The notes beneath the pieces were generated by a model. It worked only from the letters and a program-made list of their open reading frames with translations, was not told the origin of the DNA and searched no databases. Shown here in pieces: positions 37,740 through 49,061 of a DNA stretch of 62,531 nt; position 1 is the stretch's first letter; the number at the start of each line of letters is the position of its first letter. Source of the stretch: Burkholderiales bacterium (lineage in GTDB: Bacteria; Pseudomonadota; Gammaproteobacteria; Burkholderiales; Thiobacteraceae); contig JADMJT010000024.1 in the NCBI GenBank assembly GCA_018781585.1, positions 1 to 62,531 of the forward strand. The letters are read 5' to 3'. The position numbers and the translations under genes were made by a program.

Positions 37740-38555
37740 ATGAACAAGTCGCTTTTCAAATCTCTAGTGGTGGCAGGTGCTTTCGCAGCCTCTGCTAACG
37801 CTCAAGCTGCTATGAATCTTGGCGGTATTTTGATTGATCCGGGCTTTCATATCGAAGTCGCCTCCCTTTTCGAAAACCCCGTTTTCCTCGTGGGCCAAAC
37901 GCTTACTGGTTATGGTGAAGTGACCCAAATTAATGCTAGTGCGGCTTTCTGCGCTGGCGGCCTGGGAACTTGTGAACTGACGTATCGATTTGGCGGCTAT
38001 ACGGTAAGCGCCATTTCCCCGACAGCGGTTTCTTTCACTGGCGGCTGGGTGAATTTCTATGTTGGCACCGGCGTCACTAACGATTTTAACCCGTATGGTA
38101 GCGCCAGTTCGGCTGCTGATATTACCGCCGTTACTAACGGCGTCCTTTGGCTGACGCTTATGGGCCACGACAATGGTGGTTTCACATTGGCAGGTACCGG
38201 CTCAAACATCGGCACGGGGAATGACATCGGCTTCGGTGGTGGTTTGTTGGATGTGGACTTCACTGGCCTAGCAAATGGTAATGCCGCTGGCGCTGGCGCG
38301 ACTGCAGGCATCAATTTTGACACCAACAGCCAACCCGACCTTCTGGCTGGATTCGCCGATTTCCAGTTTACCTCGACCTTTGGTACGGGTGTGGTGCCTC
38401 ACGCTGCCGAATGCGCGGGTGGAACCCTGACCTCCTGTCTGCCAGGCGCTGCAACGCTGCGCGGCGTTGCGATCCCCGAGCCAGCTAGCTTAGCTTTGAT
38501 CGGCGCTGGTTTGCTCGTCGGTGGCGCGGTATCCCGCCGCCGCAAGCAAAAATAA
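37740..38555 (+). CDS. PEP-CTERM sorting-domain protein
   Basis: 271 residues. A signal peptide (cleaved near ANAQA-A) leads into a Gly/Ala/Asn/Thr-rich extracellular protein that ends in the exosortase recognition tail: PEP at 246-248, the hydrophobic stretch ASLALIGAGLLVGGAV and a basic end SRRRKQK. Such proteins are cut and sorted by an exosortase (EpsH/XrtA type) and linked with exopolysaccharide. Two Cys pairs (CAGGLGTC and CAGGTLTSC) may form disulfides. AAGGAG precedes the ATG, and a sigma54 promoter and terminator bracket the gene, so it is a single-gene transcript. The exosortase is not in this window. Confidence 0.93.
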   Translation: MNKSLFKSLVVAGAFAASANAQAAMNLGGILIDPGFHIEVASLFENPVFLVGQTLTGYGEVTQINASAAFCAGGLGTCELTYRFGGYTVSAISPTAVSFTGGWVNFYVGTGVTNDFNPYGSASSAADITAVTNGVLWLTLMGHDNGGFTLAGTGSNIGTGNDIGFGGGLLDVDFTGLANGNAAGAGATAGINFDTNSQPDLLAGFADFQFTSTFGTGVVPHAAECAGGTLTSCLPGAATLRGVAIPEPASLALIGAGLLVGGAVSRRRKQK

Positions 38556-38580
38556 AAACCCCTTTAGGGTCATTGCGAAG

Positions 38581-38608
38581 CCCCCATCTTAGGATGGGGG
38601 TTTTTTTT
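38581..38608 (+). terminator. Rho-independent terminator after the PEP-CTERM gene
   Basis: CCCCCATC (38581-38588) and GATGGGGG (38593-38600) form an 8-bp stem with a 4-base loop, followed by eight Ts (38601-38608). Confidence 0.9.
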
Positions 38609-38668: not shown

Positions 38669-39742
38669 TTAACGATATATTAGTTCTGACAGTTCGCGAC
38701 GGGTTGAGCGTGAACTTGGCGGGGCCACTACTTGTCGCCCGATTCTGCCCAGAAAAGGGGCTTGTTCTGAGCCGAGGCCGAACCGGAGGTTAAATTCCTG
38801 CGCTATGGCGGTCGCTTTACTTGCGGTGCCGGGTTCCGTAGAGAAACTACGAGCCCGCTCCCCATAATAAGCGAAGGCTAGCGTGGCAAACGCGGGTTGC
38901 ATGACCAGCCCCAACGAGGCGGCCGTCAGCCAGAAGCGCTGCAGTGCCTGGCCTGCGGCGAGAAAGATCTCGTCGCGGCTCGTGAGCGCTTGCGGGCAGG
39001 TGAAGGCGAAGTGGGCCGCGCAACGCAGTCCGGGCAGCACATCCATTTCGATCACGGGCATGAGCGGCCCGGCGAGGTAATGATTAAGAAACGACGCCCG
39101 CGCCCAGTTGCCTAGCGCCCATCTCATAAGCTGACGCGTCATCGGGTCGAGACCAACCGCTGTGGCGGGCACGCGATCTGGGCTCAGACGATTGTCCCAG
39201 TCGATGATCCTTTGGTGAATGGCGAAAGTTTCCGGGATGGTTAACCTAAGCCAGGTAGCGCGTGCGTTCAGGCGCGTAATGGCCCATTTTTCCGCGAATG
39301 TCTCGAACCAGCGAATCTGAAACATTGGGCCAACGGCGGATTGCAGCGCCTGCTTTTCTGCCTCTGTGAGCGCTTGCATTCGATAGGGCCTGCGATCGAC
39401 GGAGCGCTGCTTGATCCAAGCGGCGAGTGGATCCTGCGCCAGCGAGGGTAACAAGGGGAAATCGATCTCGAACTTGAGCGCGGCGGGGTCTTCAAATGCA
39501 AGCACCCACTTCATGCCACGCGCTTGGCTGCTGGCCGCGATGCGTAAGGTTTCGAGCATGACCCCGCTGGTGGTTCGGGTGGCTGCGCCGCCAAAGTCGT
39601 AAACATCGTTCTCCCGGCGAATATGCAATCGAAGCCGATCTTCGCCCAGAATTTCGAAACGCCAGGGTTGTAGGTTATCTCCGCTAGGCGCCCAGCGGGC
39701 AAGCTCGAGTATTGATTTGAGCACTTCAGGAATGTCGCTCAT
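38669..39742 (-). CDS. Nitroreductase-family protein
   Basis: 357 residues, longer than simple nitroreductases (about 200). The N-terminal LARWAPSGDNLQPWRFEIL and the C-terminal FWLTAASLGLVMQPAF are FMN-binding-type signatures of the nitroreductase fold, with a long insertion between (about 130-250). No membrane helix is clear. It shares ATGA with the ThiF-like gene upstream and is the last of a three-gene operon with a FeeM-like acyltransferase. By analogy with other E1-plus-nitroreductase pairs it may be an FMN-dependent oxidase acting on an activated or acylated product; this is inference. Confidence 0.8.
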   Translation of the reverse strand: MSDIPEVLKSILELARWAPSGDNLQPWRFEILGEDRLRLHIRRENDVYDFGGAATRTTSGVMLETLRIAASSQARGMKWVLAFEDPAALKFEIDFPLLPSLAQDPLAAWIKQRSVDRRPYRMQALTEAEKQALQSAVGPMFQIRWFETFAEKWAITRLNARATWLRLTIPETFAIHQRIIDWDNRLSPDRVPATAVGLDPMTRQLMRWALGNWARASFLNHYLAGPLMPVIEMDVLPGLRCAAHFAFTCPQALTSRDEIFLAAGQALQRFWLTAASLGLVMQPAFATLAFAYYGERARSFSTEPGTASKATAIAQEFNLRFGLGSEQAPFLGRIGRQVVAPPSSRSTRRELSELIYR

Positions 39743-46469: not shown

Positions 46470-48235
<1,766 letters not shown>

Positions 48236-48239
48236 CTAC

Positions 48240-48245
48240 ATTATA
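48240..48245 (-). promoter_or_regulatory. -10 element of hemB, possibly leaderless
   Basis: A perfect TATAAT on the minus strand ends 7 bases before the hemB ATG, so the start of transcription would coincide with the start codon. No Shine-Dalgarno is visible and no strong -35 is found. Confidence 0.45.
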
Positions 48246-48356
48246 CCTTTCCGGTTGAGTGGCATGCGCCAGAAGAATAAATGCCTGAATTTAAGGCCCG
48301 GGCAAAAACTTTGCTTAATTCCTGGAACTTAACAAAAACATGCCTATCATAAGAAG

Positions 48357-48463
48357 CAGACGGTAGTGATATCGTCTCCCGCTTCTCCTCCCTGAGCGGG
48401 GCCTTAATCCCCATTAAGGCGTTCCGCCCCCGGTTTTTGTTCCCCTTTAACCGGGGGTTTTTT
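48357..48463 (+). ncRNA. Putative small RNA with anti-SD-like loops
   Basis: Three consecutive hairpins: CCCGCT/AGCGGG (48378-48383/48395-48400) with a loop holding CTCCTCC; GCCTTAAT/ATTAAGGC (48401-48408/48413-48420) with a CCCC loop; and a terminator CCCCCGGTT/AACCGGGGG (48427-48435/48449-48457) with T6. A -10-like TATCAT at 48345-48350 gives a transcript of about 107 bases. CTCCTCC can pair with Shine-Dalgarno sequences. The location next to engB matches that of Spot 42 (enterics) and ErsA (Pseudomonas); it also resembles, from memory, the betaproteobacterial toxic small RNA family in Rfam. Exact ends are inferred. Confidence 0.7.
48427..48463 (+). terminator. Terminator of the small RNA
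   Basis: A 9-bp stem CCCCCGGTT/AACCGGGGG and six Ts (48458-48463). It reads in the plus direction, whereas both flanking genes are on the minus strand, which is the main reason to propose a plus-strand transcript here. Confidence 0.85.
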
Positions 48464-49061
48464 ATTGCTCAGCAGAAGCGTTTAGCCAGTTACCGATAAT
48501 CGCTTCGGCTTCTTCCGCCCCCATTTTTTTCAGGCTTGAAAACAGCTGCACGCTACATTGCGGGTAAGCTTCCTGCAAGACCATTCGCACCTCGCGCAAG
48601 ACCGTGCCCGCCTGGCTTTTTGATAATTTATCTGCTTTGGTCAACAGAATATGAATCGGCCGCCCGGTTGGGCCAAACCAATTCAGCATTTGTCGGTCGA
48701 GCGGGGTCAAGGGATGACGTATATCCATAATCAGCACCAGCCCCGCGAGCTCGGCGCGCGTTTCTAAATATTGCGCCAACACAGCCTGCCAGTGTTTGCG
48801 CACCGATTCCGGCACCTCGGCATAACCATAGCCTGGCAAATCGACCAAATAATTGCCATCATAAATTCGAAAGAAATTGAGCAGTTGCGTGCGCCCTGGC
48901 GTCTTGCTGACAAAAGCCAGCTTGCGCTGGGCGAGCGTGTTAATCGCGCTGGATTTGCCGGCGTTCGAGCGCCCGGCGAAGGCGATTTCGCGCGCGGTCA
49001 CGGGTAAGGTGACGAGGTCGTGCACCGAGACCTCGAATTCAAGCTGACTAAATAACGACAT
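48462..49061 (-). CDS. engB: Ribosome-assembly GTPase EngB (YihA/YsxC)
   Basis: 199 residues of the YihA/YsxC GTPase family, needed for 50S assembly. P-loop [13 protein letters not shown]2/G3 ([24 protein letters not shown]), and G4 TKADKL are present. Its stop codon lies in the T-run of the small-RNA terminator, so the two transcripts converge. It diverges from cytochrome c4, as engB does in Pseudomonas. Confidence 0.96.

Follow-up and report, generated by a model that had tools for sequence, protein, structure and literature searches.

An RF02837 (anti-hemB) small RNA beside engB, with a predicted sigma-E-type promoter and sequence links to ErsA and sX13

The gap between engB and hemB in the window (the whole stretch of 62,531 nucleotides that was analysed) holds what is, judged by sequence and predicted fold, a genuine small regulatory RNA belonging to the Rfam family RF02837 ("anti-hemB"). 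It is a fresh member of a family that has already been catalogued. The reading that we favour, and consider probable, is that of a trans-acting sRNA of about 109 nt, most likely transcribed by sigma-E under envelope stress, that represses by loop-to-Shine-Dalgarno pairing and shares a locus-bound ancestor with sX13 of the Xanthomonadaceae and ErsA of Pseudomonas. According to this model, envelope stress would free sigma-E (of the RpoE/AlgU type), the RNA would be transcribed and it would stop at a terminator of its own that abuts the 3' end of engB. The exposed C-rich loops, foremost the near-invariant CCUCCCUGAG loop of hairpin 2, would then pair with G-rich Shine-Dalgarno regions, and the translation of a group of mRNAs would be repressed.

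RF02837 is the sole family of Rfam release 15 that matches above its gathering score in the 62.5-kb window. The match covers positions 48375-48465 on the plus strand and the full length of the model (72.5 bits, E 4.7e-15, model positions 1-81, cut-off 49.5), and at E<=0.001 the window copy is the one RF02837 match in the host genome. Our own betaproteobacterial model, which has the window copy among its members, scores 110.4 bits at 48349-48465. The best estimate for the transcript is about 48357-48465 (plus strand, 109 nt), with the 5' end placed from the promoter and the 3' end from the terminator. This segment has a predicted minimum free energy of -48 kcal/mol (z -5.47; reached by 0/200 shuffles) and is predicted to fold into four hairpins, the last of which is the terminator. 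Hairpin 1 (48358-48377) is predicted by folding, lies outside the Rfam model and has a covarying stem. Hairpin 2 (48378-48400), drawn from the alignment A1 described below, displays the near-invariant loop UUCUCCUCCCUGA at 48383-48395, the presumed seed, and hairpin 3 (48401-48420), drawn from the fold, displays CCCC at 48409-48412. The intrinsic terminator (48426-48465; terminator prediction and fold) combines a C-rich loop, UUCCCCUUU, with a T tract that overlaps the engB stop codon. The earlier note had described, between two minus-strand genes, a plus-strand small RNA with an intrinsic terminator preceded by two strong hairpins and with the loops of hairpins 2 and 3, all of which agrees with the family match and the fold; hairpin 1 is extra to its list, and it did not name RF02837.

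Both flanking genes lie on the minus strand, 229 bases apart: hemB (porphobilinogen synthase, 47225-48232; NF006762 504.6 bits, PF00490) is the divergent neighbour and engB (YihA/YsxC GTPase, 48462-49061; TIGR03598 226.7 bits) the convergent one. The window copy has the placement of RF02837, in the engB-hemB gap and convergent with engB. On the minus strand, a TATAAT starts 13 nt ahead of the hemB start codon (window 48233-48245), and the hemB leader may be very short. The labels PEP-CTERM, cytochrome c4, trpB-like and chemotaxis-like for neighbouring genes are ones that we presume.

Membership of the betaproteobacterial toxic sRNA family RF02278, which the earlier note had brought up, is very improbable. 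This family has CUCC loops of the same style ahead of a terminator, and its model does match at the same place in the Rfam covariance search, but with 23.0 bits against a cut-off of 50. The RF02278 RNAs are double-hairpin RNAs whereas the window RNA has four predicted hairpins, and in the excerpts of PMC5688073 the RF02278 label stands on ncS03, ncS05, ncS27 and ncS62 but not on ncS04, the anti-hemB RNA of Burkholderia cenocepacia biofilms.

RF02837 is widespread in the order of the window, where 232 of 300 genomes match at E<=0.001 and 190 score above the cut-off. The class and order searched are taken by us to be Gammaproteobacteria and Burkholderiales of GTDB, and relatives in the order bear the names Burkholderiales, Betaproteobacteria and Hydrogenophilales. 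Seventy-one betaproteobacterial copies were fetched: the window and the 30 best-scoring copies (31), and 40 hand-picked for family spread from about 150 listed. L030, a near duplicate of L029, was dropped, leaving 70 loci for neighbour counts; L246, whose locus ends close upstream, was also dropped from alignment A1 and from the promoter counts (69 copies). Across the 69 copies of A1, CCUCCCUGAGCGGG is nearly invariant, as are CCTCCCTGAG and its stem, an invariance flattered by the way in which the copies were picked. Helix 2 is paired in 99.1% of the cells of A1. Covariation is seen in the stem of hairpin 1 and in that of the terminator. Both-sided changes occur in 14 of the 19 pairs, including 7/7 in helix 1 and 6/7 in the terminator stem. 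The covariation score is 0.299 compared with 0.148 for shuffled alignments (reached by 0/500 shuffles) and falls to 0.04-0.07 once the partners are slid. Hairpin 3 is absent from the RNAalifold consensus of A1. An invariant loop on compensated stems would be the expected look of a pairing seed. The C-rich anti-Shine-Dalgarno loops of the earlier note are present.

The gene to which the RNA is linked is engB. It adjoins the RNA in 63 of the 70 betaproteobacterial loci (54 convergent, 9 codirectional), compared with 55 for hemB, and convergent engB and divergent hemB occur together in 50. At three loci (L026, L245 and L246) engB is still convergent and hemB was not found beside the RNA. At the nine codirectional loci (L019, L029, L248, L250, L256, L258, L261, L267 and L271) the RNA stands after engB and shares its strand, so that the orientation has changed and the linkage has been kept. 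The partner gene of the RF02837 RNA is engB, and the family carries in "anti-hemB" the name of its less constant neighbour.

These counts bear on a second alternative, that the RNA is, in line with the family name, a cis-antisense regulator of hemB whose site of action is the leader of that gene, or that it partners read-through transcripts of engB-hemB. The 55 copies beside hemB speak for it, as does the antisense position of the sRNA in the engB-hemB gap: read-through RNA from engB would cover the sRNA and could pair with it. However, the sRNA begins about 125 nt ahead of the hemB start codon and is transcribed away from hemB, no hemB match lies beside 15 of the 70 betaproteobacterial copies or in the flanks of 149 gammaproteobacterial engB loci (0/149), and the hemB start site is an unremarkable partner for the main loop (-7.3 kcal/mol, compared with a median of -8.0 for 44 window ORFs). 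We regard regulation of hemB in cis as improbable.

Upstream of the RNA lies a predicted promoter sequence of the sigma-E/AlgU type (48325-48351, plus strand), with GAACTT at 48325-48330, a 16-nt spacer and TCATA at 48347-48351, which is a strict match to the AlgU consensus GAACTT-N16/17-TCtgA (PMC10651043). The strict pattern (GAACTT-N16/17-TCNNA) is found in 33/69 betaproteobacterial copies versus 0/69 controls and in 22/57 gammaproteobacterial copies versus 2/57. The corresponding counts for a relaxed form are 53/69 (window included) versus 1/69 and 29/57 versus 2/57, and the shuffle means for a near-identical pattern are 0.5 (beta) and 0.3 (gamma). GAAC[TC] is located 46-52 nt ahead of the Rfam start in 54 of the 69 betaproteobacterial copies. 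The relaxed pattern is missing from 16/69 betaproteobacterial copies, several of them narrowly, and from 28/57 gammaproteobacterial ones. The ErsA locus examined (L315) has a strict match; three sX13 loci in two genomes and the Spot 42 locus do not match the sigma-E pattern. The -10-like TATCAT of the earlier note is present at 48345-48350, where it overlaps the TCATA of the sigma-E-type site; it reads better as part of that site than as an ordinary -10 element, and a simple sigma-70 scan of 47800-49000 returned no promoter. From this sequence the window RNA would be under sigma-E control in vivo, and position, shape and promoter together suggest a betaproteobacterial cousin of ErsA and sX13 that is induced by envelope stress.

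Several side observations concern the promoter. Elsewhere in the window the strict AlgU-type pattern recurs just once (39470-39496, plus strand), inside the minus-strand ORF 38669-39742 and probably by chance. Loci L002, L003 and L020 fail the sigma-E pattern and have upstream either GGTATATGATAGC or the near-palindrome GGTATATCATACC; this region may be a substitute promoter, an operator or the remains of a sigma-E site. The family f32 is presumably Burkholderia-like, and if the three loci are Burkholderia-like, their failure might, as a guess, fit a flat expression of ncS04. The qPCR of ncS04 gave no significant difference across the 7 conditions tabulated; according to the text, the conditions tried included SDS membrane stress (PMC5688073).

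The promoter sequence also bears on the view that the element is a mere transcription terminator of a neighbouring gene, without an independent RNA. The terminator does abut the engB stop codon, but conserved loops and a promoter sequence lie upstream of it, and ncS04 has been reported from dRNA-seq, 3' RACE and Northern blotting in B. cenocepacia (PMC5688073); we give this view hardly any weight.

Relatives of the RNA occur at engB and polA in other Gammaproteobacteria. The survey of the window's class covered 274 genomes, at least 3 of them from its order; 154 match RF02837 at E<=0.01 and 14 score above the cut-off. Matches below the cut-off are also found in E. coli and four more of the 14 control genomes, so weak matches alone mean little and the place of a match is what counts. 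The 150 matches listed in this survey comprise 65 in genomes without a listed engB place and 85 that are placeable; among the latter, 50 (48 genomes, window included) sit 15-391 nt past the 3' end of engB, 46 of them convergent, and 35 are elsewhere, not beside engB. Twelve loci outside the window's order (L033-L044) are above the cut-off, with polA in the 1.5-kb flank of 7 and engB in that of 6.

A covariance model made from betaproteobacterial copies only (R1) was applied to 149 gammaproteobacterial engB loci (the best 150 of 234 genomes by engB score, minus the window's own; 5 of the 149 have less than 600 nt past engB). R1 reaches at least 20 bits beside engB in 55 of the 149; where polA adjoins engB the count is 38 of 52 loci, elsewhere 17 of 97. 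There are 68 convergent R1 matches in all, 15 of which are below 20 bits and outside these 20-bit counts. The best background scores are 13.8 bits in 216,553 bases (porin, PrrF, own polA and more distant engB loci) and 15.8 bits in the rest of the window. The gammaproteobacterial relatives keep the hairpin order and the CCUCCCUGAGCGGG hairpin, and many read CCCCAA in the loop of hairpin 3. The 15.8-bit match (38510-38608) is a strong terminator after ORF 37740-38555, itself PEP-CTERM-like by eye, and serves as a yardstick for false positives. Two to four RNA copies within about 1 kb, siblings whose loops diverge, were seen at L121, L201, L157, L200 (beside engB) and L249, and also at G469:C33, G560:C3, G559:C1, G448:C7 and G446:C5, the G560 cluster being about 5 kb from engB.

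A second model, R2, was made from 45 gammaproteobacterial copies and has no betaproteobacterial copy, sX13 or ErsA inside. R2 recovers 11/11 betaproteobacterial copies supplied (38.6-70.6 bits), strong scores that are partly circular because its members were chosen using R1, and both sX13 loci at their exact place (48.3 and 35.3 bits). It finds 17 of the 22 beta-type named loci L272-L293, missing L278-L281 and L287, and it also misses the Methylomonas locus L294. In genome G460 the top R2 match (29 bits) starts 118 nt after the polA domain match and is ErsA by Rfam (121.3 bits). This genome has PrrF, which we take as a pointer to Pseudomonas, and its engB is on another contig than ErsA. When 18 gammaproteobacterial RF02837 loci were scanned at E<=0.5, three co-matched ErsA (L034, L041 and L060; 30-33 bits) and two co-matched sX13 (L052 and L059; 36-38 bits), all below the cut-offs of those families. 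R1 has no match on the ErsA locus L315 and scores 15.0 and 12.6 bits on sX13, within background, so the links to ErsA and sX13 rest on intermediates. On the window RNA itself, the sX13 model RF02232 scores 20.6 bits (cut-off 50), the ErsA model RF01719 has no match at E<=10 in 48200-48600 (cut-off 50) and the Spot 42 model RF00021 has none at E<=10 (cut-off 80). As background, R2 scores 18.5 bits on PrrF, 30.8 (G311) and 26.4 bits (G463) elsewhere in the sX13 genomes, which are paralogues or noise, and 22.7 bits elsewhere in G460 compared with 29 for ErsA. It reaches 20 bits or more at 9 of 38 hand-picked genomes (E<=0.01; mostly without an R1 match) and in just 2 of 81 gammaproteobacterial engB loci that lack an R1 match near engB. 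In the 274 class genomes RF02232 is above its cut-off in 2 and RF00021 in 0.

Spot 42 shares the place, convergent with engB (yihA) and facing its 3' end, in the order polA-spf-yihA, which is also given in PMC3295665. R2 matches Spot 42 at its exact position with 14.0 bits, which is no evidence because the terminator at 38510-38608 (15.8 bits with R1) and PrrF (18.5 bits with R2) score higher, and the match was dropped. The earlier note had proposed a positional analogue of Spot 42 and ErsA; the place holds for both, ErsA (together with sX13) is in addition linked by sequence through the gammaproteobacterial intermediates, and Spot 42 is linked by place only. Its interpretation is, overall, partly supported.

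From these sequences, anti-hemB, sX13 and ErsA look like one locus-bound family, and we infer common descent as against convergence. Convergence would mean that C-rich sRNAs with several hairpins evolved separately at the convergent engB/polA gap, and that the three are alike in place and style and not in ancestry. It draws on the C-rich anti-Shine-Dalgarno loops of other sRNA families (weak LhrC and ar14 matches), on the intermediates needed to reach ErsA and sX13, on the R2 score of up to 30.8 bits elsewhere in an sX13 genome and on Spot 42, which has the place without the sequence. The 12 loci above the RF02837 cut-off outside the window's order, each in its own genome and 7 of them flanked by polA, argue against convergence, as do the low R1 background and the CCUCCCUGAGCGGG string, hairpin order and promoter spacing, which come back together. 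Independent origin is unlikely in our estimation. A broader form of the common-descent reading is tentative and somewhat doubtful: that a single ancient sRNA has stood beside engB since the ancestor of the Beta- and Gammaproteobacteria, giving rise to anti-hemB, ErsA, sX13 and also Spot 42 (by now unrecognisable by sequence), and that it was ancestrally a sigma-E-controlled anti-Shine-Dalgarno repressor of translation whose promoters changed later in Spot 42, sX13 and some betaproteobacterial copies. The alphaproteobacterial ar14 model co-matches the RNAs of L059, L053, L040 and L312 (up to 40.5 bits, E 0.0005, cut-off 58.8), reflecting either convergence on anti-Shine-Dalgarno loops or a deeper link.

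The proposed mode of action is modelled on the characterized relatives. Reporter tests indicate that sX13 represses by means of its C-rich loops and requires G-rich sites on the mRNAs that it targets (PMC3771888), and ErsA, encoded between polA and engB, is raised by sigma-22 and lowers oprD (PMC8575079). By analogy, the window RNA would repress through its CCUCCCUGAG loop. Porins were tried as candidate targets. When pairing with loop 2 was ranked against 44 window ORFs, the start sites of 5 of 8 porins from the window's genus placed in the top 3, with a bipartite complement, CTCA..AGGAGAG (a ninth porin, L333, was excluded because its start is unclear). Across the order this motif is found in 1/28 porins and 1/59 controls. 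Pairing with loop 2 is stronger at the 28 porin than at the 59 control start sites (p 0.037), in a set for which 2 of 30 loci yielded no start and several of the 28 starts used seem misplaced, and scrambled loops equal loop 2 in 5/200 cases for the median difference and 2/200 for p. Pairing with the terminator loop is stronger for porins too (p 0.0009). The 16S anti-Shine-Dalgarno sequence separates porin from control start sites as well (p 0.004), so that the loop-2 signal is not separable from Shine-Dalgarno strength, and porins are at best putative targets.

With its linkage to engB, its sigma-E-type promoter and its connection to ErsA and sX13, RF02837 gains a testable role, that of an envelope-stress sRNA of many Betaproteobacteria. 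Among the publications listed in literature searches, none joins anti-hemB with ErsA, sX13 or Spot 42. The proposed grouping of anti-hemB with sX13 and ErsA in one engB-bound family, and the reading of its usual promoter as of the sigma-E type, appear to be new as far as those listings reach. Two RNAs considered as counterparts were set aside: the Neisseria sigma-E sRNA, which lies in another gap (NMH_1566/NMH_1568, dnaE side; PMC3240639), and ncS35, which has different neighbours (PMC5760752).

Among known RNAs, the window RNA, itself above the RF02837 cut-off, is closest to the anti-hemB RNA ncS04 (105 nt, 3' end mapped; PMC5688073), which is of similar length, and the engB-hemB gap is the place of most betaproteobacterial copies examined. 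A Burkholderia survey (PMC3521395) also lists an anti-hemB RNA in a table, and the excerpts of these two papers give no function for it. The present description differs in the sigma-E-type pattern of 53/69 copies, which the excerpts of PMC5688073 do not mention, and in hairpin 1, which the Rfam model leaves out. Spot 42 (RF00021) of E. coli resembles the window RNA in its convergent place and similar length but has no sequence similarity above background and no sigma-E pattern. ErsA (RF01719) shares the place after polA, the sigma-E-type promoter sequence, recovery by R2 and three intermediates that match both families (ErsA below its cut-off), whereas the window RNA has no RF01719 match, ErsA has three stem-loops and a U-rich linker (PMC8575079) and engB is on another contig in the one ErsA genome examined. 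sX13 (RF02232) differs in the missing sigma-E pattern and in the score of its model on the window RNA, but it too lies downstream of polA, is recovered by R2 (48 and 35 bits) and has three stems, whose C-rich loops act on G-rich sites (PMC3771888). The authors of the sX13 study pointed out that sX13, Spot 42 and ar7 have the polA locus in common and raised the question of similarly acting sRNAs at this locus in other bacteria (PMC3771888). The present family bears on that question, and the results for sX13 and ErsA offer a starting point for a family with matches in 232 of the 300 genomes searched in the order.
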